From IMG/VR virus record IMGVR_UViG_3300039191_000701, positions 1-26,023 of that record: 26,023 nt of DNA; one strand, given 5' to 3'. The stretch is from a virus. Made by a program: the position numbers and the translations under genes. Below are positions 7,784-22,398 of the stretch, in pieces. Under the pieces are notes generated by a model that did no database searches, was not told the origin of the DNA, and saw nothing but the letters and a program-made list of their open reading frames with translations. Each line of letters starts with the position of its first letter. The first letter of the stretch is position 1.

Positions 7784-9112
7784 TCAGGCGGCCGTTCGTT
7801 CCCCTTCCTTTCCCGTCGCCATCTCCCACCGCCGCACCGCCACATCGCAATAGACCGGGTCCAGTTCCATCGCGAAGCATCGCCGTCCGCTGCGTTCGGC
7901 GGCGACCAATTGGGTGCCAGAGCCGCAGAACGGCTCGTAGATCAGGTCGCCTGGATCGCTGAACGCTGTCAGCACCGCCTCGACCAGCGCCACGGGAAAC
8001 ACTGCCGGGTGCGATCCTGCAGCGCCCAGCCCGCCCTTGTGGCGCATGATGCGCAACACAGAGTCAGGGATGCGATGGCTCTGGATCGCGTTGCCGGTGC
8101 CGGTCTTGGCGTGGACGGTGCCGTCTGCGCCGCGCAGTCCACCGCCGCCCAAAGTTTCGCCCGCGTGCTTCGATGGCACCGTTTTGTGCGGTTTGCGGGG
8201 GCTGCGGTTGAAGTGGAAAATGAACTCGTGCGACGGGGCCAAGCGGCCGTTCCAATCGCCCGGCAGGCCCGGGCCCTGATCCCACACATACCAACCAAAG
8301 CTTCGCCAGCCAGAGCTGCGCATCCATTCCACCCATCCTTCCCAATAGGGCATCCATTCGCCGTCGCGGTGCACGAGGCCAAGGTTCACCAGAAGCTGGA
8401 CGTCGTCCGTGACCGGGGCCGCTGTGAACACGCCCTGCATCAACGCATCCCAATCGCCAACCTTTTCCTTGGCCGCGCCATAGTCGCGCTGCTGGGCGTA
8501 GGGCGGCGAGGTGAACATCAGCGTCGCTTGTTCACCCTGCATCAGCTTGGCAACGGCGACGGGATCCGTTGCATCGCCGCAGCACAGGCGGTGTTTGCCC
8601 AGCGCCCATATATCGCCCGGGCGGGTGATGGGATCGGCTGGCGGTTCGGGAATGGCATCGGCGTCGTCATCAGAAATCACCGAACGGTCGTCGGCGTCAG
8701 CCAACAGGGCGTCCAGTTCATCCTCGGGGATCCCAATCAACCCGAGGTCGAAATCCTCGGCCAGCAGGGCCTGCAATTCTTGAAGCAGCAGGGCCTCGTC
8801 CCAGCCGCCCAGTTCGGTTAATTTGTTGTCGGCGATGCGATACGCCCGGCGCTGCGCCTCGGTCAGGTGGCCAAGAATGATGACTGGCGCTTCGGTCAGG
8901 CCGAGGTGGGCAGCCGCCAGGACGCGACCGTGGCCAGCAATCAACTCGCCGTCGGCCGCGACCAGCACCGGAACGGTCCAGCCGAACTCGGCCATGCTGG
9001 CGGCGATCTTTGCGACCTGATCGGCATCGTGAGTCCTGGCGTTCTGGGTATACGGCTTCAACTGGGCGAGGGGCCAATGTTCAATCCGCCCGGGAAGCAG
9101 GGGCGCGTTCAT
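7784..9112 (-). CDS. ParB-domain DNA methyltransferase fusion (TSPPY type)
   Basis: A 442-aa two-domain protein. Residues about 10-135 form a ParB/sulfiredoxin-like domain (DGELIAGHGRVLAA at 54-67, YRIADNKLTELGGWDE at 91-106). The rest is a beta-class amino-methyltransferase with catalytic TSPPY at 201-205 before the AdoMet-binding EPFCGSGT at 393-400. SPPY is often seen in N4-cytosine enzymes, so m4C is possible but not proven. Phages use such orphan methyltransferases to mask their DNA from restriction. Its start overlaps the end of a related gene by 4 bp. The N-terminal 170 residues are closely related to those of that neighbour, which suggests tandem duplication. Confidence 0.9.
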   Translation of the reverse strand: MNAPLLPGRIEHWPLAQLKPYTQNARTHDADQVAKIAASMAEFGWTVPVLVAADGELIAGHGRVLAAAHLGLTEAPVIILGHLTEAQRRAYRIADNKLTELGGWDEALLLQELQALLAEDFDLGLIGIPEDELDALLADADDRSVISDDDADAIPEPPADPITRPGDIWALGKHRLCCGDATDPVAVAKLMQGEQATLMFTSPPYAQQRDYGAAKEKVGDWDALMQGVFTAAPVTDDVQLLVNLGLVHRDGEWMPYWEGWVEWMRSSGWRSFGWYVWDQGPGLPGDWNGRLAPSHEFIFHFNRSPRKPHKTVPSKHAGETLGGGGLRGADGTVHAKTGTGNAIQSHRIPDSVLRIMRHKGGLGAAGSHPAVFPVALVEAVLTAFSDPGDLIYEPFCGSGTQLVAAERSGRRCFAMELDPVYCDVAVRRWEMATGKEGERTAA

Positions 9113-10368
9113 CCCGCCAGCCTCTTCGCCTTCAGTTCGGCGAAGGTTTCGCCTGTGTCTGCCAGCACGGCATTGGCGCCGGTGAACTGCTGCCAGCGCT
9201 CGATGGCGACATCGACGTAAACCGGGTTCAACTCGATCCCGAAGCAGACGCGGCCGGTGGTTTCCGCCGCGATCAGCGTGGTTCCAGATCCCATGAAGGG
9301 TTCATACAAAGCCTGACCCGGGCTGGAGTTGTTCAGGATCGGGCGGCGCATGCATTCGACCGGCTTCTGGGTGCTGTGGATGGTGGTAGCGTCCTGATCC
9401 TTGTTGGCGATCTTCCACAGTGTCGTCTGCTTCCGGTCACCCGCCCAGTGGCCCTTGCCGGTCTTCTTAACCGCATACCAGCAGGGCTCATGCTGCCAAT
9501 GATAGTCGCCACGGCTGAAAACGAGGCTGTCCTTGGCCCAGATGATCTGCGACCGCACGTTAAACCCGGCCGCCATCAGGCTCTCGGCCACGGTCGCGGC
9601 GTGCAGCGCTCCGTGCCAGACATAGGCCACGTCGCCGGGGAACAGCGCCCACGCTTCCCGCCAATCCGCCCGATCATCGTTCAGCACCTTGCCGGTGCGC
9701 TTGGTCTTTGCCGCGCCAGCTTGGTTGCGCCAGGAGGGATCGTATTCGACGCCATAGGGTGGATCGGTTACCATCAGCTGCGGCTTCACCTCGCCCAGCA
9801 GCCGCCCGACCACATCGGCGGATGTGCTGTCGCCGCAGATCAGCCGGTGCGATCCCAGCTGCCAAAGGTCGCCCGCAACCGAGACCGGCGTGACCGGCGG
9901 TTCGGGAATGTCGTCCTCACCCTCAACAGCCCCGCCTTCCACCTGATCTGGATCGCGCAGCAGGGCGTCCAGATCCTCGTCGGTGATCCCGAGCAGCGAC
10001 AAGTCGAAATCATCGGCCAGCAGCCCCGCGATCTCGTCGCGCAGCATGGCCTCGTCCCAGTCGCCCAGCTCGGTCAATTTATTGTCGGCGATGCGATAGG
10101 CGCGGCGTTCCGCCTCGTCGAGGTGGCTGAGCCGGATCACCGGCACGTCCTTCAGCCCGAGCATGACCGCCGCCAGCACCCGGCCATGGCCCGCGATCAA
10201 CTCGCCATCGTCGGCCACCATGCAGGGCACGGTCCAGCCAAACTTGGCCATGCTGGCGGCGATCTTGGCGACCTGGTCCGTGCCATGGATCTTGGCGTTG
10301 CGGGCATAGGGGCGCAGCCGATCAATCGGCCACGTCTCGATCTGGCTCGGTGCGAAGACCAGGTCCAT
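9109..10368 (-). CDS. ParB-domain DNA methyltransferase fusion (DPPY type)
   Basis: A 419-aa protein with the same layout as the next gene: a ParB-like domain (about 10-135, DGELIAGHGRVLAA at 54-67) and a beta-class methyltransferase. The catalytic motif is TDPPYG at 201-206 and the AdoMet motif EPFMGSGT at 356-363. DPPY is the usual adenine-N6 form. The family protects phage DNA or marks it for regulation. It is the first gene of a two-gene operon, with a sigma70-like promoter at 10509-10538 about 140 bp upstream. The ParB-like domain could bring sequence specificity or self-regulation, but this is inference. Confidence 0.9.
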   Translation of the reverse strand: MDLVFAPSQIETWPIDRLRPYARNAKIHGTDQVAKIAASMAKFGWTVPCMVADDGELIAGHGRVLAAVMLGLKDVPVIRLSHLDEAERRAYRIADNKLTELGDWDEAMLRDEIAGLLADDFDLSLLGITDEDLDALLRDPDQVEGGAVEGEDDIPEPPVTPVSVAGDLWQLGSHRLICGDSTSADVVGRLLGEVKPQLMVTDPPYGVEYDPSWRNQAGAAKTKRTGKVLNDDRADWREAWALFPGDVAYVWHGALHAATVAESLMAAGFNVRSQIIWAKDSLVFSRGDYHWQHEPCWYAVKKTGKGHWAGDRKQTTLWKIANKDQDATTIHSTQKPVECMRRPILNNSSPGQALYEPFMGSGTTLIAAETTGRVCFGIELNPVYVDVAIERWQQFTGANAVLADTGETFAELKAKRLAG

Positions 10369-11932: not shown

Positions 11933-12316
11933 TCATGGGGCGCACAGCTTCGCATCCTCCAGCGTGCTCGCGTAGATCAGGCAGGTTTCCACGTCCTCCA
12001 GCCGCGCCGCCATTCCCCTCGCGATTTCGAGGTTCTCGTTGAATTTGTCGACCAGATCATTGTGCTTTCTCAGCAGCGTGTCATGCGCCTCGGCGCATTC
12101 GGTCACGTTGGATTTGCAGGTGAACCCTTCATAGTTGCATTGGTAGCTGTCGAAACAGGCAGCGCTCTCATTCACGCATTTGCCCGAACTGGAACAGACC
12201 GTATCGCCATAGCCAAGGCAGGCGCCGCGGTCACCGTAGGAGCAGGTGAAGCCCTGTTGCGCGAACGCGCCTGACGGGATCAGCGCTATGGTGAGGAGCA
12301 GCGTTTTGATTCTCAT
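11933..12316 (-). CDS. Secreted Cys-rich protein coupled to the Type ISP enzyme
   Basis: A 127-aa protein with a clear signal peptide (MRIKTLLLTIALIPSGAFA, cut before QQ). The mature part has ten cysteines, eight in its first 55 or so residues (SYGDRGACLGYGDTVC, GKCVNESAACFDSYQCNY) and two near the end. A charged helix or coiled coil of about 35 residues lies between them. It is probably a disulfide-bonded periplasmic or surface protein. Its ATG overlaps the stop of the restriction enzyme gene (ATGA at 12316-12313), so it is translated from the same message. Similar small Cys-rich proteins seem to occur without restriction genes, so the link may be local. Function unknown. Confidence 0.8.
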   Translation of the reverse strand: MRIKTLLLTIALIPSGAFAQQGFTCSYGDRGACLGYGDTVCSSSGKCVNESAACFDSYQCNYEGFTCKSNVTECAEAHDTLLRKHNDLVDKFNENLEIARGMAARLEDVETCLIYASTLEDAKLCAP

Positions 12317-15300
12317 TCCGGGAGGTCCAATTTCGGCAGGGCGCGGACGATCTTCATCGTCTTCAAGCTCACCGTGATGACGCGTTGGAACAGTTCCAGC
12401 GGATAGGCCGGGTTGTTCATCGTCTCAACGGCATAGGCGTTGGCGTCGTTGACGATGCCGCTGGCCTTGTCCGTTTTCACCACCTGGCGTTCCATCACCC
12501 ATTCCAGCGCGGGCTTGCCGTTGACGACGTAATCGTAGGCCTCCAATGGCACGTCGGTCATGGTGATGTTGGCGTTGTAGATCACCGTGGTCTTGTCGGT
12601 GTCGCCCCGCTTGCCCGCGAACTTCATCTTGGTCACGCGGTAGAATGTCTGCGCGTCCTTGACGACCCAAGTGCGCGGATCGCCCTGCTTGTAGGTGACC
12701 GGATAGGGCTCCACCGTTTCGTAGTTGACGTGAAGATCGCCCAGCGCGCGACCGGCGTCCGAAAAGGCGCGAAAGTCAGCGTAGGTCTTCACGCCCGGGA
12801 TGCGGGGCAGTTCCTTGGTCAGGTTGTCGGCGTAGCGGTCGCGGTAATCGGGGGAATGCAGCAGGCCGTAAACGTAGTAGAAGATGTCCTCCTTGGTGAT
12901 CGCCTCGCCCGGATAGGCCGTCTGGAAATGCGCCAGCCCAGCATCGGTAATCGCATCACGGCGCTGGAGGCCCGAGGACTGACCTTCGAAGAGGTTGTCG
13001 GACACCTCGTCCTGCTGATCGTAGAGGTAGAGGGGGAAGCACTGGGTGCCGCCGTCAGATTGAAGTTCAATCGGCGCGTCGCTCATCAGTGCGAGGTTTC
13101 CATCTCCTGACCATCGCAATTTAACTACGATTATCCGATTATCGAGCGATGCATCAGGGAAGAACCTTGGCATCTTGCCTATGTCGCTGACTAGAGAGCG
13201 ATCAAAGTAAAGCCATTGCTTTGAGTATGGACGATACAAGCTTTTTCGGAGCGCGCTCTGATCAAACGTCAGTTCAACGTCGCTACCGAGGCGCCGAAGT
13301 AAAGAACGGTTCCAACTGATTTTTTTGGCGTCGTAGGCAACGTATTCAGATGGGTCCGAGGGCCGGTTGGTGTCGTTGTGAAACCGACGTCTCTCGGAAT
13401 TATAGACTTTCAACAAACTGCTGATTTTGGAACCCAGCGTTGAAGGGCTTGGGTTGAAACACCAAGCGTCTCTGTTGGTTTTGCTGCCACCTGAAAATTC
13501 TACGAAGAGCTTTTCGCGCTCCCCGCGGTCTCTATCACCAATTTTGTAAAAGGCATCGAAGCTGGCATCTCGTTGGTTGACCCAGTCATTCTGATCGTCC
13601 GGCATGATCCGTTCCCAGCCGTTCGCATTACTGATTCCATTCACAGCAGCGAAATCGCGGATAATCGAGAGCTTCTGCTTCTGGTTTAGGTAGTCGCCAA
13701 TGTCGTGAAAGAAGATGCGGCCATGTTCCGCCGCATCCGGGTTCTTGACGAAGACGCTAATGGCGATGGGCGCGCGGCTGCCTGAGCCGAAAATCTTGCC
13801 GCCTTCCTTGCGCGACCGCTCTCCGCTGGTGCGCTGGTTGCCACGAAGGTGGAAGATGTAGAGGTCGGTGAATTCTTCGGCAAGACAGGCGCGCAGCCCG
13901 TCCGCCGCGTTGCCATCGACCCAGCCTGCATTCGTGACATAGGCCACGATCCCAGCATCCCCAATCCGGTCAGACGCCCAACGGATTGCCCGGATATAGC
14001 TGTCGTAGAGGGAGTTTTTTAGCGTGGCCGTAGACCGCTCTGCGTAGGTTTCACCGATGCGCCCATCCAGCCCCGGATAGCCGACGTTCGCATTGTTGTC
14101 GTTGGCACTGTTCTGCCCCGAGGAATACGGCGGGTTGCCCACGATCACGCGGATATCCACCTCCTTCTGCCGCTTCCGGCGTTCAGAGTTGTCGGGCATG
14201 TAGAGCGCCAGTTCGTCGTCGCCCTCATACATTTGGAAGGTGTCGGTCAGGCAGATCCCCTCGAAGGGCACATATTCGTGGCTCTCGGTGATCCCCTGAT
14301 AGACCGCCTCGATGTTGATCGCGGCGATGTAATAGGCCAGCAGGACGATCTCGTTGGCGTGGATTTCGTTGCGATACTTGTGCTCCAGCTCCTCCGGCGC
14401 GATCAGGCCTGATTGCAGCAGCCGGGTGATGAAGGTGCCCGTCCCGGTGAAGGGGTCGATGATGTGGACGCCCTTGGACCCCAGCGTCTGGCCGAAATGC
14501 TCCTGCAACATCTCGTTGACCGAGTGCAGGATGAAATCGACGATCTCGACCGGCGTATAGACGATGCCCAGCTTTTCGGTGGTGCGGGGGAAGGCGTTGC
14601 GGAAGAACTTGTCGTAAAGCTCGACGATGAGCTTTTGCTTGGCCTGCGGATCGGTGATGCCTTGCGAGCGCATCTTGACGCTGGCGTAGAACTTTTCGAG
14701 GTCTTTGGATTCCTTGTCGAGGTTGGCCTCGTTCAGCACATCCAGCACGCGCTGCATGGCGCGCGACACGGGGTTTTCGGCGGTGAACTTGTGACCTTCG
14801 AACAGGGTCTCGAACACGGGACGCGTGATGATGTGCTGGGCCAGCATCTCGATGGCGTCGCCTTCGGAGATCGTGTCGTTCAGATCATCACGCAGTTCCG
14901 CCAAGAAGGCATCGAAGGCTTTGCGGGATTCGGTGTTGGGGTCTTTCAGCAGTGCGGTCAGGCGGGTGATGTGGCTCTTGGCAATCTCGGCAATGGAGGT
15001 CGACCAGTCCTCCCAATAGTCGCGCGTGCCGCATTTCTTGACGATCTTGGCCATGATGGCGCGCGAGAATTCGTCGATGGAGAAAGTCATTTCGGTTTGG
15101 GTCGGTCCCGGCCCCTCGATGACGTCATCGCCGTTGCCACCGCTGCCCGAGCCGATGCCCGAACCGGCGGCCTTGGTCTTGGTGGGCAGCTTGTCGACAA
15201 CAGCGGTGACGGAGCGAAGTTCTTCGGACTCGGCGTTGATGCCGACGATTTCAACCCTGTCCGAAATGTCTTGCCCGAGGGAGGCCTTGTTGATGGTGCT

Positions 15301-17208
15301 GTCGAAGCGTTCATCATGGGCGCGCAGCGCGTTCAGGATCTGCCAGACAACGCGGTAGCGTTCATTGTCGGCCAGCGCTTGTTCGGGCGGCACACCGGCG
15401 GGTACGCCGACCGGCAGGATGACATAGCCCATTTTCTTGGTGTCAGTCTTGCGCATGACGCGGCCGACCGATTGCACCACGTCGATCTGGCTTTTGCGCG
15501 GGTGCAGGAACATGATTGCATCGAGGGCGGGCACGTCGACGCCTTCGGACAGGCAGCGAGCGTTGGTCAAGATACGGCAAGTATTCTCGCCTGCATCGGC
15601 CTTCAGCCAATCCAGCAGAGCGCTGCGAGTCTTGGCGTTGAAGGTGCCATCGACGTGTTCGATTTCACATTGGAGGTGATCCGAGGGCGCATCGTTTTCG
15701 ACTAGGTTGTCCAGCCCAAGATACTCATCGACCACGGCCGAGAACTCGTCCCGGATCAGTTTGGAGCTGCGAATGTCCTTGGCGAACGCCAGCGCACGCT
15801 GCATCGGATGGGGATCGGCGGTGACGTCGGTCTTGAGGTCGATCTTGGTTAGCGCCTTGTAACAACCGATGATCTTGGTGGCATCGTCCAGCACCAGTTC
15901 GCTGCCCGCATCGCCGAGCCGTTTTTGCACTGCGGCACTGACCAACCCCTCGTCCATGGCCAGGACGATGACCTTGTAATCGGTAAGCAGACCGTTCTGC
16001 ACCGCCCAGCCGAAGCCCCTGTAAAACAGGGTTTCGCCAAAGAGGTCGGGGTTGTCCATTGACGCCAGTTCGGCGCCAACTTCATCCGCCTTGCTTCGAA
16101 CGTTGTCCCCGAAGATCCGGGGTGTCGCCGTCATGTAGAGGCGCTTGCGGCCCTCGACATGATCATCACTGTGGATTTTGACGAAGTTCGACTCTTCCTC
16201 GCCTCCAAGCGTCGCGCCGGTCGTTCGATGTGCCTCGTCACAGATGATTAGGTCGAATGCAGGAAGGCCTGCCTCCTGCGCACGGGTCAGAGTGACGATG
16301 GATTGATAGGTCGAGAAGATGACCGTCATCCGTTCGGGATCGTCCTCACCTGCCTTTTCGGCAACCTTGGCCGGATCCGTGGTGGCTGGAAACGCCAGAT
16401 CGTGGATTTCGATTTCGGCGACATCATCAGTGCTTTTGCGGCGCTTGCCGACATGGGCATCCGAGCAGACGGCAAAGGCCCGGATCGGCGTTTCGGTGTC
16501 ATTGGTCCATTCCCGAACCGTCTGGGACATCAGCGCCAGCGAAGGCACCATGAACAGAACGCGCTTGCCCTTGCCTGCGATGGCCTCGGCGATCTTCAGT
16601 GAGGTGAACGTTTTGCCAGTGCCGCACGCCATGATCATTTTGCCACGATCAGCCGCAGTCAAACCGGTTCTGACGTCTGCAAGTGCATCGTGCTGATGCT
16701 GCATAAGGGTTTTCTTGGCCGCCAAGACGATCTCGCCCCGTGCCTCGAAGATCGTCCAGTCGATCCGGCTTTCCCGCAAATCGGTCAATCCAATCCGCAC
16801 AACTGGGATCGCCTGACCGCGGATCATCTCCTCGGCATTTGTCCCCCACTCTTGCTCTGTCGTGTCGAGAACGACCCGCCGACGAAACGGCTCCTTGCCG
16901 GAGGCCGAGATGAAGCTATCGATATGCGATTTCTGGATCCGGGTATCGGCGGCGTAGAATTTTGCCTGGATCGCAGCGAAGCCGTCCTCATTGCGCAGTT
17001 TGGCGACCAGATCGATCCCTACATCTTTGCCATCCCAGCCGTTAGCTTTGGCCCAGTCGCTCCAGGTCCAGACAGCGTCATATTCCTCAACCTGAACCGG
17101 ATCATTCATGAAGAACGCAAGTGCGAGGCGTTCGAAGTACGTACCTTTCTCGCGTTCGGTAACAGCTGCGTCGCGATAAGATTGCAGGATGCGGTCAATT
17201 GCGGTCAT
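12313..17208 (-). CDS. Type ISP restriction-modification enzyme (nuclease-helicase-methyltransferase)
   Basis: A single 1631-aa polypeptide combining restriction and modification, in the LlaGI/LlaBIII layout. Residues 1-160 form an Mrr-like nuclease (D66, then Q81 and K83 in AIQAKFY). The SF2 translocase follows: ACGTGKT 194-200, DEAH 324-327, TATPR 360-364 and QSVGRVMRK 579-587. After a Gly-rich linker near 682-692 comes a helical coupler, then the N6-adenine methyltransferase with DPFTGTGTF at 918-926 and NPPY at 1025-1028. The rest is the target recognition part. Length is close to the usual 1570-1620 aa. All catalytic motifs are present, so it is probably active against unmodified phage or plasmid DNA. 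The DNA for residues about 1170-1375 is markedly AT-richer, as if the recognition part was exchanged. Confidence 0.92.
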   Translation of the reverse strand: MTAIDRILQSYRDAAVTEREKGTYFERLALAFFMNDPVQVEEYDAVWTWSDWAKANGWDGKDVGIDLVAKLRNEDGFAAIQAKFYAADTRIQKSHIDSFISASGKEPFRRRVVLDTTEQEWGTNAEEMIRGQAIPVVRIGLTDLRESRIDWTIFEARGEIVLAAKKTLMQHQHDALADVRTGLTAADRGKMIMACGTGKTFTSLKIAEAIAGKGKRVLFMVPSLALMSQTVREWTNDTETPIRAFAVCSDAHVGKRRKSTDDVAEIEIHDLAFPATTDPAKVAEKAGEDDPERMTVIFSTYQSIVTLTRAQEAGLPAFDLIICDEAHRTTGATLGGEEESNFVKIHSDDHVEGRKRLYMTATPRIFGDNVRSKADEVGAELASMDNPDLFGETLFYRGFGWAVQNGLLTDYKVIVLAMDEGLVSAAVQKRLGDAGSELVLDDATKIIGCYKALTKIDLKTDVTADPHPMQRALAFAKDIRSSKLIRDEFSAVVDEYLGLDNLVENDAPSDHLQCEIEHVDGTFNAKTRSALLDWLKADAGENTCRILTNARCLSEGVDVPALDAIMFLHPRKSQIDVVQSVGRVMRKTDTKKMGYVILPVGVPAGVPPEQALADNERYRVVWQILNALRAHDERFDSTINKASLGQDISDRVEIVGINAESEELRSVTAVVDKLPTKTKAAGSGIGSGSGGNGDDVIEGPGPTQTEMTFSIDEFSRAIMAKIVKKCGTRDYWEDWSTSIAEIAKSHITRLTALLKDPNTESRKAFDAFLAELRDDLNDTISEGDAIEMLAQHIITRPVFETLFEGHKFTAENPVSRAMQRVLDVLNEANLDKESKDLEKFYASVKMRSQGITDPQAKQKLIVELYDKFFRNAFPRTTEKLGIVYTPVEIVDFILHSVNEMLQEHFGQTLGSKGVHIIDPFTGTGTFITRLLQSGLIAPEELEHKYRNEIHANEIVLLAYYIAAINIEAVYQGITESHEYVPFEGICLTDTFQMYEGDDELALYMPDNSERRKRQKEVDIRVIVGNPPYSSGQNSANDNNANVGYPGLDGRIGETYAERSTATLKNSLYDSYIRAIRWASDRIGDAGIVAYVTNAGWVDGNAADGLRACLAEEFTDLYIFHLRGNQRTSGERSRKEGGKIFGSGSRAPIAISVFVKNPDAAEHGRIFFHDIGDYLNQKQKLSIIRDFAAVNGISNANGWERIMPDDQNDWVNQRDASFDAFYKIGDRDRGEREKLFVEFSGGSKTNRDAWCFNPSPSTLGSKISSLLKVYNSERRRFHNDTNRPSDPSEYVAYDAKKISWNRSLLRRLGSDVELTFDQSALRKSLYRPYSKQWLYFDRSLVSDIGKMPRFFPDASLDNRIIVVKLRWSGDGNLALMSDAPIELQSDGGTQCFPLYLYDQQDEVSDNLFEGQSSGLQRRDAITDAGLAHFQTAYPGEAITKEDIFYYVYGLLHSPDYRDRYADNLTKELPRIPGVKTYADFRAFSDAGRALGDLHVNYETVEPYPVTYKQGDPRTWVVKDAQTFYRVTKMKFAGKRGDTDKTTVIYNANITMTDVPLEAYDYVVNGKPALEWVMERQVVKTDKASGIVNDANAYAVETMNNPAYPLELFQRVITVSLKTMKIVRALPKLDLPE

Positions 17209-17420: not shown

Positions 17421-19478
17421 GTGAAGGCAGCAGAGACCAAGGTTGATCGTTTTCTGGCCAGCAATGAGACGTCTTTCGCGATTCCTGTCTATCAGCGTAA
17501 TTACGACTGGGCGAAGACGCAATGCGCGCAGTTGTTCAAGGATATTCTGGAAGTTGGGGGCAATGACGATCTGTCCGGGCATTTCATTGGCAGCGTCGTT
17601 TACGTTCATGATGATGTTTACACGGTCTCAGGACTTCGCGAATTTACGATCATTGATGGCCAGCAGCGCCTGACCACCCTGACGCTGATCTACATCGCCA
17701 TTTTCCGTTACCTGGTTGCCGCGGGCGAAGAGCGCGAAGCCCAGCGCGTCTACAAGACATTCCTGATCAACGAATTTGCAGAAGACACCGAGAAGCTGAA
17801 GCTGAAACCTACCGACAACAACAAGGCCGCGCTGGCTCAGCTAATGGATCCACAGGAAGCGATTAAGGTCAGCGGGTATTCGCGGTTGGTCGAGAATTTC
17901 CGCTTCTTTCAGACCAGGATCGACGCGTCCAACGTGGCAATTGTCCTGAAGGGATTGTCCAAGCTCATCTTTGTCGACATTGCGCTGGACCGCCAGAAGG
18001 ACAACCCGCAGCGCATCTTCGAGAGCCTGAATTCGACGGGTCTGGAGCTTTCGCAGGCTGACCTGATCCGCAACTACATTCTTATGGGATTGCCGCGCAA
18101 AGAGCAGGAGCAGGTGTTCCGCAAGTTCTGGGAGCCAATCGAGCGCAATGCGCGCAATCTCGAGGTGAATGAAAGCCGCGTATCAGATTTCATCCGAGAC
18201 TATCTGACGCTGAAGCAGAAGGACATTCCTAACAAGGGCGCGGTGTATGCGAAGTTCAAAGAGCGCTTTCCCACACCAAACTCGCCCGAGCTGATGGATG
18301 CTCTTGTCGAAATCCGCGAACTGTCGAACGTCTATGCGCGCCTGCTTAATCCTGATCTGGAAACGGACGCCGTGATCGCGCGCGAACTCGGCTATATCCG
18401 CACACTCGAGATCAACGTTTCCTATCCGTTCCTGATGCCGGTCTATCGGGATTTCCAAGACGGGGTGATTTCCCGAGACGACTATGCAGCAGTGCTGCGT
18501 CTGGTTCAAAGCTATGTCTGGCGTCGCGCCATCTTGGGCCTACCTACCAACGCGCTGAACAAGATCTTTATGGGCCTTTACGATCGGGTGGAACCCGAGG
18601 AATACCTCAAGTCGATCCAGCGCGCGCTGATGCAGCGTGGCGGCACACAGCGTTTCCCGCGCGACCCCGAGGTGCTGGCGGTCCTCAAGGAGAAGGACAT
18701 GTACAGCGTAAAGGGGCGCACGCGCACCTATTTCTTTGACAGGCTCGAGAACCACAACAACCGAGAGATCGTCGATGTCACGGTGCCCGGAATCACGGTC
18801 GAGCATATCTTCCCGCAAAACCCTGATCCGGAATGGCGCAGCATCCTAGACGAGGACGACTATGCGGCGATGGGAGAGCACTTCCTCAACACGATCGGCA
18901 ACCTGACGCTGTCAGGCAACAACGGTCGACTTGGTAACAAGACATTTACCGCAAAGCGGGACATGAACCACGATGGTGCTGAACAAGGCTACCGCTACAG
19001 TCGGCTCTGGCTGAATCGCGACCTGCAGACCCTTGATCATTGGAATGTGGAACAGATCGAAGCGCGGGCAGAGCGCATCGCACAGCGGTTTCTTGAGGTC
19101 TGGCCCGCACCCAGCGTGGACGTGCTGGTCGGCTCAGATGTTGATGAGGTCAATATCTTCGAGGCGGAAGAGCCGAAGTTCAAAAAATTGGAATATGCGG
19201 TTTTCCTCGGAAACCGGCTCTGGGTGACGCAGGTCAGCCGTCTTTACGTCGAGGTCATCCAGCGTCTGCTTTCTGAGCAACCTGACGCTTTCCACGGTAC
19301 GAAGCTTGGTGATCGCATCCAACTGGCCGCCGATCCCGCCAGCTTGCGCCAATCGGTTCAGGTCGCGGAGGGCTATTTCGTCGAGGGCAACATCGATTCG
19401 ACGACCAAATTCGAGAGGATGAAATTCACCCTGTCCGAACTGGGTCTTGAGGATGAGCTGTTCATCAAGTTCGCATAG
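17421..19478 (+). CDS. DUF262/DUF1524 (GmrSD-type) restriction protein
   Basis: A 685-aa protein. The N-terminal DUF262 part has IPVYQRNYDW at 21-30 and the nucleotide-binding DGQQRLTT at 79-86, and continues to NSTGLELSQADLIRNY near 205-220. The C-terminal DUF1524 part is an HNH-type nuclease with VEHIFPQNP near 459-467 and NTIGNLTLSGNN near 488-499. GmrS and GmrD activities are joined here, as in many single-chain members that cut modified phage DNA in a nucleotide-dependent way. About 110 extra residues follow the nuclease. The start is GTG at 17421. It lies divergent to the Type ISP gene, so the two may cover unmodified and modified invaders. Confidence 0.88.
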   Translation: MKAAETKVDRFLASNETSFAIPVYQRNYDWAKTQCAQLFKDILEVGGNDDLSGHFIGSVVYVHDDVYTVSGLREFTIIDGQQRLTTLTLIYIAIFRYLVAAGEEREAQRVYKTFLINEFAEDTEKLKLKPTDNNKAALAQLMDPQEAIKVSGYSRLVENFRFFQTRIDASNVAIVLKGLSKLIFVDIALDRQKDNPQRIFESLNSTGLELSQADLIRNYILMGLPRKEQEQVFRKFWEPIERNARNLEVNESRVSDFIRDYLTLKQKDIPNKGAVYAKFKERFPTPNSPELMDALVEIRELSNVYARLLNPDLETDAVIARELGYIRTLEINVSYPFLMPVYRDFQDGVISRDDYAAVLRLVQSYVWRRAILGLPTNALNKIFMGLYDRVEPEEYLKSIQRALMQRGGTQRFPRDPEVLAVLKEKDMYSVKGRTRTYFFDRLENHNNREIVDVTVPGITVEHIFPQNPDPEWRSILDEDDYAAMGEHFLNTIGNLTLSGNNGRLGNKTFTAKRDMNHDGAEQGYRYSRLWLNRDLQTLDHWNVEQIEARAERIAQRFLEVWPAPSVDVLVGSDVDEVNIFEAEEPKFKKLEYAVFLGNRLWVTQVSRLYVEVIQRLLSEQPDAFHGTKLGDRIQLAADPASLRQSVQVAEGYFVEGNIDSTTKFERMKFTLSELGLEDELFIKFA

Positions 19479-19495: not shown

Positions 19496-20170
19496 TCATT
19501 CACTGACTGGCGAGCTTGCAGCCCAAGGTCGCACTTTCGGCATCGCGGCCGTCACCTCCACCTCCCGCAGCATCCCGCCCACCACCAACCCATCGCGCAC
19601 CCAATCCAACGCCTGCCACCAATCCTCATAGCCGCGCCGGGCGGAGGCGATCTGTTCCGGGTGCGGCCGCCAGGTGATCGGGCAGGCCATAACCTCGACC
19701 GTGCGCCATTTGCCTCGGGTCAGCACCTGTTCGGTGCCCACAACTTCCGTCACGGCCCGAACACCATGCTGATTCTGGCGCGTTTCCACCGGCACGCAAC
19801 GCGGCACCACGCCGGGCATCCAGTCGGGGGTCAACCCGGCGCGGGACAGTTCCGCCACGCGGATCGCCATGCGGATGCCGCCGAGGCTGTCGGGCATTCC
19901 TGCAACTGTGGCGGCGATGACCTCGGCGTCCGCGTGGGTATAACTGCCCATCTTGTGCTGACCACCGTCCACTTTGCAGCCCAGCGCGGCGCGTTGCATC
20001 AGGACATATTCCAAGCCAAACCCAAAGCCTTCTTCGACCACGTCCCTCGGAGGGGGCAGTTCCAGCTGTGCCTTTTCCACCCGAAACGCCCATTCCAGCG
20101 CCGCCTGAACGCCCAGCGCGCGTTTCATCTTTGCACCACCGGCGCGGCCGATCCGTCCCTGCATGCTCAT
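19496..20170 (-). CDS. Conserved phage hypothetical protein (about 224 aa)
   Basis: I do not recognise a defined domain. The product opens MSMQGRIGRAGGAKMKRALG, continues with LEWAFRVEKAQLELPPP and ends with WWQALDWVRDGLVVGGMLREVEVTAAMPKVRPWA. It resembles uncharacterised proteins next to C5 methyltransferases in Rhodobacteraceae prophages. I prefer the ATG at 20170: GAAGGA sits about 8 bases ahead, and this ATG forms an ATGA with the stop of the upstream frame ending at 20167. The ATG at 20179 is an alternative. It faces the DUF262 gene tail to tail across 17 bp containing a short AGGGT/ACCCT inverted repeat. Confidence 0.7.
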   Translation of the reverse strand: MSMQGRIGRAGGAKMKRALGVQAALEWAFRVEKAQLELPPPRDVVEEGFGFGLEYVLMQRAALGCKVDGGQHKMGSYTHADAEVIAATVAGMPDSLGGIRMAIRVAELSRAGLTPDWMPGVVPRCVPVETRQNQHGVRAVTEVVGTEQVLTRGKWRTVEVMACPITWRPHPEQIASARRGYEDWWQALDWVRDGLVVGGMLREVEVTAAMPKVRPWAASSPVSE

Positions 20171-20928
20171 GGCAGCCATCCTTCAAAGAGGTTCATCTGC
20201 GCTGGGCCCTCCGGCTCGTCCGTTGGCCGCCAGATCCACAGACCCGAGGCCATGGGCAGCTGCGAGAGAGCGCCACGCATGTGCCGCTGCCAGAGGATGA
20301 ACTCCGTTGCCGAGCAGGCGCAGAGCGCGTGCCCGATGGGCCAGCCCATCAGCCATCCGACGAAGAGCGGATTGAGCCGCCGCCGTGCCCGGGCTTTCAG
20401 GATGCGCCGCGAGACGACCCGCCCATGCGAGGCAATCATTGAAGCCCAGAGCGGGCGCGAGATCGGGGCGTGCGGCGAGGATTGCTGCCCATGCATCCCG
20501 ATCACCGGGTCCGGGCGGGTGAAGCCCAGTTCTGCCCGATAGTGCAGAATATCCATCCGGGACTTGCCATCCGCCCGCGTCACACTGGCCGGGCTGCTGC
20601 CCTTCCAGTTCTGTGCCGCTGGTGTCGGCCACCGGAGCGCCTGCGCGCTCAGCTTGGGCTCGCCCCGGCTGTTGATCTTGCCGCGCAGCCGGTCGACCTG
20701 ATCGTCCGCCACCGGGGTCTGCCATTGCGCCGCCTGCGCTGGCAGGGGAGGCATCCCGCCCGAGCCGTAATTCTGGCCCGGCCCACCCTTCGCTCCGTCT
20801 GTCGCCTTGGGTGTCGACCAAGTGCTGATGCCCAGCGCCAGCGCCTCGGCCTTGCGGGTAAAGTCGCTGTTCCCGGCCGGGTTGTAGGTTGCCGTGCCGG
20901 GATGCAGGCTCATCGGTGTGGGCCAGGA
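20167..20928 (-). CDS. C-terminal half of the C5 methyltransferase in the second frame
   Basis: This frame, one base downstream of the catalytic frame, encodes the repeated WPTP/STP-type segments seen in many phage C5 enzymes: SWPTPMSLHPGT, WSTPKATDGAKGG, QTPVADDQ and RWPTPAAQNWKGS. It ends with RRRLNPLFVGWLMGWPIGHA and HMRGALSQL. By eye its third codon positions are nearly all G or C, whereas the catalytic frame in the same DNA is about half. Its TGA overlaps the next ATG (20170-20167), as elsewhere in this operon. No good start exists nearby (ATG at 20913 lacks a ribosome site). So it is read either by a frameshift from the catalytic frame or is a remnant. Confidence 0.55.
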   Translation of the reverse strand, partial: SWPTPMSLHPGTATYNPAGNSDFTRKAEALALGISTWSTPKATDGAKGGPGQNYGSGGMPPLPAQAAQWQTPVADDQVDRLRGKINSRGEPKLSAQALRWPTPAAQNWKGSSPASVTRADGKSRMDILHYRAELGFTRPDPVIGMHGQQSSPHAPISRPLWASMIASHGRVVSRRILKARARRRLNPLFVGWLMGWPIGHALCACSATEFILWQRHMRGALSQLPMASGLWIWRPTDEPEGPAQMNLFEGWLP

Positions 20929-21424
20929 TGAAGATGCGCAACCGCTGGTGCGGCGCGCCGACTTCTGCCGCGCTGAACAGGCCCGCCGCAGGCGTGTAGC
21001 CCATGTCCCAAAGCTCTCGCAGCACGGCTTCAAGGCCGAGGGTGACGTGACCGGGGACGTTCTCCAAGAAGACCCACTCGGGAGCGCATTCTCGGACGAC
21101 GCGGGCGACCTCTGGCCAGAGGTGGCGGGGATCATTGGCACCGCCGCGCTTTCCGGCGGCGCTGAAGGGCTGGCAGGGATACCCGGCGAGGATTGTGTCG
21201 AAAGCACCGCGGAAGGGGCGGGCTTTGAGGCTGCGCAAATCATCCCAGATTGGCGCGGGGGCGAAATACCCTGCGCGCTGGGCGGCAATGAGGACGGCGC
21301 GGGGCCAGTCCTCCCATTCGACAAAGGCGCGGGTGTGATAGCCGGGCTCGGCGAGCATGAGGCCCAGATCAAGGCCTCCGCCGCCTGCGCAGAGGGACAA
21401 TCCGTGCCGGGGACGTGACACCAT
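20183..21424 (-). CDS. C5 cytosine DNA methyltransferase, catalytic frame
   Basis: From ATG 21424 this frame encodes 413 aa with the C5 motifs in order: I LSLCAGGGGLDLGL (about 8-21), IV with catalytic Cys AGYPCQPFSAAGKRGG (about 72-87), VI FLENVPGH (about 114-121), VIII GAPHQRLRIFIL (about 154-165). Beyond about residue 166 (position 20928) composition changes to Gly/Ala/Arg-rich, although ALRLLGNGVHPLAAAHAW near the end looks like motif X. A second frame over the same DNA (20928-20167) looks like protein too. The enzyme would mark cytosines in phage DNA. Either this frame is complete, or the gene is frameshifted near 20928. The start lies 5 bp after the replication gene stop. Confidence 0.8.
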   Translation of the reverse strand: MVSRPRHGLSLCAGGGGLDLGLMLAEPGYHTRAFVEWEDWPRAVLIAAQRAGYFAPAPIWDDLRSLKARPFRGAFDTILAGYPCQPFSAAGKRGGANDPRHLWPEVARVVRECAPEWVFLENVPGHVTLGLEAVLRELWDMGYTPAAGLFSAAEVGAPHQRLRIFILAHTDEPASRHGNLQPGREQRLYPQGRGAGAGHQHLVDTQGDRRSEGWAGPELRLGRDASPASAGGAMADPGGGRSGRPAARQDQQPGRAQAERAGAPVADTSGTELEGQQPGQCDAGGWQVPDGYSALSGRTGLHPPGPGDRDAWAAILAARPDLAPALGFNDCLAWAGRLAAHPESPGTAAAQSALRRMADGLAHRARALRLLGNGVHPLAAAHAWRSLAAAHGLGSVDLAANGRAGGPSADEPL

Positions 21425-21429
21425 GCCAT

Positions 21430-22398
21430 TCACCGCACCCCCCGCTGACGCAGCCTGTCCGCCGTCACCAGCCCGCGCGCCAGCATCGCCTCGCACATGG
21501 CGTTGCTGATCATGCCATTGGGCAGGTATTCGTCTGAATTGACCTTGGCGGCGTAGAAGTTCGCCAGTTCATCAGGGCTGGGTGGAGGCTTTCCTTGGGC
21601 CTTGCGGCTGTGCTTGGATTTCAGGGCGCTGGAATTGTCTGCGGCCCCCTGCGCATCTCGCCGGGCGGCGCGCTCCATGAAGCGATCCAGCGCCTTTGGG
21701 CCGTCGGGCGGATTGGGGTGATCGGCCCGTGAGGCGCGGGCCACTTCGAGGATCTTATCCTCAGACAACCCGAGGTCATCGATCCAGCGGCGAACGTGCG
21801 ACCGCGCTGGCCAGCCCTGCCACCAGGCAGGGAGCGTGGCATCGGAGGCGAAGCCCAGCGCGTCGAGCAGTTCTGCAAAGAACCGATCAAAATCGGCATC
21901 GCGCGCAGCCGCGTCCTCCTCCTCCTTTACAGGTTTACTTAGGGGTTCTCTTACAAGGTTAATCTCCGGATTCCGGAGATGGCTTTGGGCAAAATCAGGA
22001 GATGGCTTTGCCGAAAATCCGGAGATGGCTCCATGTCCGGAAACTGGAGTTGGATCGACATTCTGTTCTTCTTCCGTTCCTGCAATTCCATCTCCGGTTT
22101 TCGGAGTTGGCTCTGGTGGAAACCCATCCTCGAACCCCAAGATGTAGCGCGTTGCTTTGCGCTTGTGGGTGCGCGGATCATAGCTGCGAACCCGGTGGAT
22201 CAGGCGCAGCTCCTCAAGCTTGGTGAGGTGGTTGTTCAGTGCTGAGACCGACATTTCCGCGTCGTCGGCCAATCGTACCTGCGTCGGGAAACAGCCGAAG
22301 TCCGGATTGTGCCGGTCACAGAGGAACCAGAGCACGATCTTGGTCGCAGGCTTCAACCCGCGTTGCTGGATGGCCCAGACGGTTGCCTTGTGACTCAT
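21430..22398 (-). CDS. Winged-helix phage replication protein (lambda O-like role)
   Basis: A 322-aa protein with an N-terminal winged helix-turn-helix (about 1-88: PTQVRLADDAEMSVSALNNHLTKLEELRLIHR), a polar linker (about 90-165) and a C-terminal domain (DFDRFFAELLDALGF ... WRWIDD-like HVRRWIDDLGLSEDKILEVA), ending with RLRQRGVR. This order matches phage initiators that bind repeats inside their own gene. The linker DNA indeed carries an iteron-like array. The gene overlaps the nuclease gene by 4 bp and is followed at once by the C5 methyltransferase. The role is inferred from architecture; a plain transcription regulator is the alternative. Confidence 0.7.
   Translation of the reverse strand: MSHKATVWAIQQRGLKPATKIVLWFLCDRHNPDFGCFPTQVRLADDAEMSVSALNNHLTKLEELRLIHRVRSYDPRTHKRKATRYILGFEDGFPPEPTPKTGDGIAGTEEEQNVDPTPVSGHGAISGFSAKPSPDFAQSHLRNPEINLVREPLSKPVKEEEDAAARDADFDRFFAELLDALGFASDATLPAWWQGWPARSHVRRWIDDLGLSEDKILEVARASRADHPNPPDGPKALDRFMERAARRDAQGAADNSSALKSKHSRKAQGKPPPSPDELANFYAAKVNSDEYLPNGMISNAMCEAMLARGLVTADRLRQRGVR
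21962..22112. repeat. Iteron-like array and dyad, candidate phage replication origin
   Basis: The core GGAGATGGCT occurs at 21975, 21998 and 22021, exactly 23 bp apart, each with AT-rich flanks (AAAATC before the second and third). Looser copies GGAGTTGGAT at 22046 and GGAGTTGGCT at 22103 follow. At one end lies a perfect 19-bp palindrome, ATCTCCGGA-T-TCCGGAGAT (21962-21980). A moderately AT-rich stretch (about 21925-21962) adjoins it. The array lies in the linker of the winged-helix gene, as lambda iterons lie in gene O. Confidence 0.6.

Follow-up and report, generated by a model that had tools for sequence, protein, structure and literature searches.

The window analysed here is an entire IMG/VR viral record of 26,023 bases. 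On its minus strand, a stretch that reads as protein in two frames is flanked by an O-like replication-initiation gene and a gene of unassigned function. The first-pass annotation had described a C5 methyltransferase whose catalytic frame (A) carries motifs I-VIII and stays open to a motif-X-like end, and a second frame (B) with WPTP repeats and a stop overlapping the next ATG. Both frames were found as described, with B in the +1 frame of A. The features, all on the minus strand, are as follows:

21430..22398 (-), upstream gene, replication-initiation O-like protein (phrog_345, E 1.7e-24); its TGA overlaps the start of A
21427..21433 (-), GTGAATG start junction
20183..21433 (-), frame A, a C5 methyltransferase carrying motifs I-VIII plus X and proposed to be the alpha subunit
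20167..21429 (-), frame B, proposed beta subunit: 420 aa from the ATG at 21429
20936..21400 (-), catalytic motifs I-VIII in frame A, as indicated by fourfold-site divergence; B is mostly free linker here
21362-21400 (-), motif I of frame A, LSLCAGGGG
21161-21184 (-), GYPCQPFS of frame A
21056-21070 (-), FLENV of frame A
20936-20959 (-), GAPHQRLR of frame A
20536..20925 (-), WPTP-repeat region of frame B, likely the target-recognition region; frame A is open and unconstrained here
20914, 20809, 20713 and 20620 (-), the repeats WPTP, WSTP, WQTP and WPTP of frame B
20332..20376 (-), motif-IX-like block of frame B, LNPLFVGWLMGWPIG, of the LNPxFVxWLMGxPxG type
20273..20356 (-), motif X region of frame A, MADGLAHRARALRLLGNGVHPLAAAHAW; it overlaps the motif-IX block of B by 25 nt
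19496..20179 (-), downstream gene, function unassigned (phrog_9306, E 9.4e-56)

Frame A is 416 aa long from the GTG at 21433 and 413 aa from the ATG at 21424. At the start junction the TGA of the upstream gene (21432-21430) overlaps the GTG of A (21433-21431) and is directly followed by the ATG of B (21429-21427). Frame B is open far upstream, to this ATG, so that the second frame spans the whole gene and reaches beyond the C-terminal half. At the other end, the stop of B (TGA, 20169-20167) shares an ATGA with the ATG of the next gene, which lies inside the downstream gene at 20170.

Other modification and restriction genes are present in the window. A single-chain Type ISP restriction-modification enzyme is encoded at 12313-17208 (-) of this phage record, with an Mrr-like nuclease, a helicase, a coupler, an N6 methylase and an ISP specificity domain. 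A GmrSD-family restriction endonuclease (type IV, directed at modified DNA) lies on the opposite strand near the C5 methyltransferase (17421-19478, +), and at 7784-10368 (-) there are two neighbouring paralogous genes, each encoding an N6/N4 DNA methyltransferase with a fused ParB-like domain.

The catalytic half of frame A is well preserved. Pfam PF00145 covers residues 33-197 (E 1.4e-31, above the curated cut-off), phrog_363 spans residues 33-415, and the catalytic PCQ, the E of FLENV, RxR and GN are invariant across 68 aligned homologues. Close to the end of the frame stands LLGNGVHPLAAAHAW. In the AlphaFold2 model the large domain has pLDDT above 90, with a confident catalytic domain at residues 1-170; residues 171-310 are disordered, the motif-X helix (377-390) has pLDDT 78-94, and the small domain is missing from the model. 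A Foldseek comparison of this model with M.HhaI aligned 174 of the 327 M.HhaI residues and no more. The one-chain organization of PF00145 enzymes, in which a single polypeptide joins motif IX and the recognition domain to motifs I-VIII and X, was thus not found in frame A. Motif IX was likewise absent from frame A in all 160 loci retrieved by scans in which the catalytic half was the query and B played no part.

Frame B was matched over its full length by phrog_27243 (E 1e-143) and also by phrog_1008, a 'DNA methyltransferase' family matched by 60/60 aligned B proteins. Profile searches with B against PDB, Pfam (including PF00145) and NCBIfam returned no credible match, and AlphaFold2 run on B alone gave a model of low confidence (pLDDT 59). 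The motif-IX label of its C-terminal block is based on hhalign comparison with single-chain relatives and on position; direct comparison with solved C5 methyltransferases gave no significant match.

Which of the two frames is constrained was seen from a codon alignment of 53 sequences. Across motifs I-VIII, substitutions fall mainly at third positions of A; just past LA/HT they move to first positions of A, which are third positions of B, and third positions of A hardly vary; from motif X on, substitutions follow the A pattern again. Fourfold-site divergence follows the same course, with 0.2-0.46 for A (0.33-0.46 in the larger part) against 0.04-0.12 for B over most of the catalytic region and 0.01-0.13 for A against 0.23-0.51 for B in the WPTP region, and over LLGNGVHPLAAAHAW the value for B drops to 0.005. 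Constraint rests on A over the catalytic motifs and again over motif X, on B in the recognition region, and on both frames around the overlap of motifs IX and X. The frame change placed near 20928 by the first-pass annotation was borne out by this switch, which lies close by, right after motif VIII; the high third-position GC it had noted also holds in the family (B 0.84; A in the overlap 0.60). In both further families described below, variation at B wobble positions is raised in the WPTP region, and third-position variation of A is near zero over the WLMG block.

Stop avoidance was evaluated by synonymous shuffling. Sequences within a family are related, and the per-sequence P values given here cannot be multiplied but are to be read as a consistent pattern and not as independent trials. 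In phages of 38% GC, some 298 codons are free of stops in A and B alike, and the third frame has 19-27 stops. When A was shuffled synonymously in the low-GC members, 2.5-6.2 stops in B were expected and none was observed (each P 0.043 or less, most of them under 0.01); when B was shuffled, 6-15 stops in A were expected and again none was observed (P at most 0.001). For the phages of 38% GC the expected numbers were 3-6 stops in B and 10-15 in A. The same stop avoidance was seen in 14 named phage isolates, with a single test keeping A not below 0.05. These results show that purifying selection acts on both frames. It could be argued that only A is real and that B is open simply as a consequence of the codons A uses at high GC, since alternative frames are often open at 67% GC and the per-sequence shuffle P values in the window's own family are modest (0.02-0.3). 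However, substitutions in the WPTP region fall at B wobble positions and not at A wobble positions, the opposite of what A alone would produce, and the pattern persists at 38% GC, with around 20 stops in the third frame. This explanation is very improbable and is ruled out by the codon-position data.

The two-frame arrangement is widespread. IMG/VR scans with either frame as query each returned about 77 loci. In 57 of these, the window's copy included, both frames are retained and their stops are separated by exactly 16 nt, although the central part of the gene varies in length. Two remote B sequences, from Escherichia phage EcoPhCCP1 and Acinetobacter phage ABMM1, served as further queries and gave 159 additional loci; in 139 of them a catalytic A frame is paired with a long B frame. 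Two remoter families also retain both frames, at identities reaching down to about 25-30% and GC contents as low as 38%. Isolates with this layout include phages of Rhodobacter, Komagataeibacter, Synechococcus, Acinetobacter, Escherichia, Salmonella, Klebsiella, Vibrio, Stenotrophomonas, Pseudomonas, Paenibacillus and Mycobacterium; among loci from bacterial genomes of several phyla, 16/18 are dual, with the catalytic motif and motif X both in A. As a guard against sampling bias, two scans used the catalytic half as sole query; 69/80 and 57/80 loci (126/160 together) were dual under a strict pattern, and those failing it were mostly pattern misses or truncations. In the reverse direction, standalone B genes without A were looked for with the two distant viral B queries and in the phage and genome collections, and none appeared save in truncated or broken loci. 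Hundreds of related phage and bacterial genes share the arrangement, and one frame is usually annotated.

A recent frameshift, one of the three explanations offered by the first-pass annotation, or a sequencing error could have broken a single-frame gene. Frame changes of the indel type do occur in a few metagenomic loci (L233, L237, L291, L306), but hundreds of loci share the two-frame layout, as do named isolates that infect many different hosts. Such an accident is the least probable of all the explanations considered, and it is ruled out by the conserved architecture of the relatives. More than chance is indicated by the 57 relatives in IMG/VR with their constant 16-nt spacing of the two stops, and by the frame switch in the substitution pattern after motif VIII.

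Several individual loci showed peculiarities. In three phage records the annotated gene is frame B (L005, 2090-2881; L003, 1895-3010; L002, 2519-3127), named as a DNA methyltransferase or a hypothetical protein, and the catalytic A frame at those positions is unannotated. At L254 (2000-3600) an HNH-nuclease-like open frame is apparently inserted between the motif-IX block and motif X, which resumes downstream in the frame of B. In L239, L246, L250 and L266 the overlap has about 50% GC against 38% across the locus, which could perhaps be a cost of coding in two frames.

Frame B also has a beginning of its own. Its ATG lies 4 nt after the start codon of A, and M[ASPV]WC[HFY]V is encoded from an ATG at a fixed offset in 57/60 close relatives. 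The N-terminus M[AST]W[CLH][HFY] occurs in 57/60 close relatives, 48/59 members of family 2 and 8/8 distant relatives; in family 3 (L160-L237) the M.W start motif was found in 0/61. In distant relatives the start motif M.W[LCIH] sits at four different distances from motif I, and the residues of A at that place are not conserved. Upstream of the switch, across the catalytic half, B is open in 168/170 loci; shuffles of A over this half gave zero stops in B in about 8-26% of trials per family. Because B has its own conserved start 4 nt past that of A, it is regarded as a separately initiated protein and not as a frameshift product.

The first-pass annotation had also proposed a programmed +1 shift. 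Shifting past motif VIII would yield one trans-frame chain, with motifs I-VIII of A and the recognition region and motif IX of B, beside unshifted A. The sharpness of the constraint switch right after motif VIII would agree with such a shift, as would the few metagenomic loci in which the two halves are fused in one frame (L291, L306). However, a shift requires neither the upstream openness of B nor its conserved start and N-terminus, the shifted chain would be without motif X, and no shared slippery sequence was noticed in an unsystematic look. In a frameshift gene, initiation of the downstream frame depends on the upstream frame; here the start of B is conserved and its upstream part is kept open. 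Programmed shifting is accordingly unsupported and considered quite unlikely.

Relatives with other layouts indicate what B may contribute. In Mycobacterium phage YungJamal, gp7 carries motifs I-VIII, and gp6 carries a B-like domain followed directly by an A-like motif X; a single polypeptide here unites the B domain with A's motif X in canonical order. The B block of the window aligned with gp6 in hhalign with a probability of 98% (E 5e-15); the match of gp6 to A's motif X is weak taken alone. In Gordonia phage Rabbitrun, LIPQFEEWMMGFPPGW shares a chain with motifs I-VIII and X, and LNPLFVGWLMGWPIG of B was aligned with it by hhalign at a probability of 91%. This Gordonia segment is collinear, though not significantly, with residues 273-306 of M.HhaI, KLHPRECARVMGYPDSY. 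Judged from these alignments, B most likely supplies the recognition region and the motif IX missing from A.

Motif X has shifted to the B frame, in an AquI-like split, in L319 (YungJamal gp7/gp6) and L342, and probably in L463, L473 and L418. In L233, L237, L291 and L306, A-type and B-type segments lie in one frame by way of apparent indels; these loci may be natural fusions, decayed copies or assembly errors.

A further possibility is that both frames are coding and B is unrelated to methylation, for instance a regulator or an anti-defence protein overprinted on an enzyme gene. The lack of any Pfam or PDB match for B would be consistent with this. However, A is accompanied by B throughout the loci examined, motif IX is missing from A at every locus of the B-blind scans, the B domain abuts motif X in YungJamal gp6, and its motif block is found inside a single-chain methyltransferase in Gordonia phages. 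An independent function of B is therefore unlikely.

Based on these results, the overlapping genes probably encode two subunits of one heterodimeric C5 methyltransferase, a reading to which we assign a probability of about 0.8. Two near-full-length overlapping genes would give two proteins off the same DNA. The alpha subunit (frame A) would consist of the AdoMet-binding and catalytic domain with motifs I-VIII, a floppy linker and motif X; the beta subunit (frame B) would consist of a short conserved N-terminus, a free linker facing the catalytic motifs of A, the WPTP region and the LNPxFVxWLMGxPxG block. The full set of C5 methyltransferase parts would be present only in the two chains combined, which would explain why motif IX is missing in A, as it would be supplied by B. 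Most likely, both chains would be co-translated from the terminating upstream gene and then assemble, and the heterodimer would methylate cytosine in phage DNA with beta as its small DNA-reading domain. The first-pass annotation had not considered two subunits from overlapping genes. Its view that the family evolved by switching frames comes closest, as in some relatives a single frame encodes the B block together with motif X, and its observation of two frames stands. It was also right in seeing both C-termini as natural-looking and, probably, in deriving two proteins from one stretch of DNA.

Long same-strand overlapping genes have rarely been established in DNA phages or bacteria, and the present pair is conserved over distant phages and several bacterial phyla, with both frames proposed to serve one enzyme. 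We consider it likely that obligate two-subunit enzymes, encoded by a near-complete same-strand overlap, make up a very large proportion of the C5 methyltransferases of phages and of their prophage counterparts in many bacterial phyla. The linker of each chain would lie opposite the conserved domain of the other, the DNA-reading module would be encoded in a second frame, which is usually overlooked in annotation or taken for the enzyme itself, and the pair would be among the most widespread long overlapping pairs in bacterial viruses. Databases call either frame 'DNA methyltransferase' or 'hypothetical protein', so that the annotation of phage methyltransferases would routinely cover half of the enzyme, and the annotated reading frame expressed alone may yield an inactive protein. 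The locus also offers a clean test case for the origin of overprinting and for whether a swap of the B frame alone might alter sequence specificity.

Two-part C5 methyltransferases are known from other systems. M.EcoHK31I has the specificity YGGCCR, and its two genes overlap in different frames. Its larger polypeptide carries motifs I-VIII and X and the smaller one motif IX only (Lee, Kam and Shaw 1995, as described in PMC3404938), and the predicted recognition domain has been assigned to the large subunit (PMC3404938). The gene pair of the window resembles it, compared by description, in that the large chain (A) carries I-VIII and X; a candidate for motif IX would lie on a second polypeptide (B). 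However, the constrained recognition-like region of the window lies in the other frame (B) and not in the large subunit, B is a near-full-length overlapping frame whose start adjoins that of A, and the gene stands by itself within the replication cluster of a phage, whereas M.EcoHK31I belongs to a restriction-modification system; the breadth of the arrangement is a further difference. M.AquI is a split C5 methyltransferase of two polypeptides with motifs IX and X on the small subunit (PMC3404938). There, too, two polypeptides complete one enzyme, but motif X of the window is in frame A, as the fourfold divergence of 0.005 for B over this motif indicates; the M.AquI layout is present in relatives such as YungJamal gp7/gp6. 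In Paenibacillus phage Redbud (genes 50/51), frame B has been annotated as 'g50 internal gene', and both frames are open and stop-avoiding; the annotation offers no function and no tie to a subunit role. The origin of phrog_1008 and phrog_27243 in the +1 frame of a methyltransferase gene is unrecorded, and no report of phage methyltransferases with overlapping frames was found in the open-licence PMC literature. Novelty is not claimed for the individual mechanism; what appears to be new is the full-length, multi-phylum overprinting and the recognition domain in the hidden frame.
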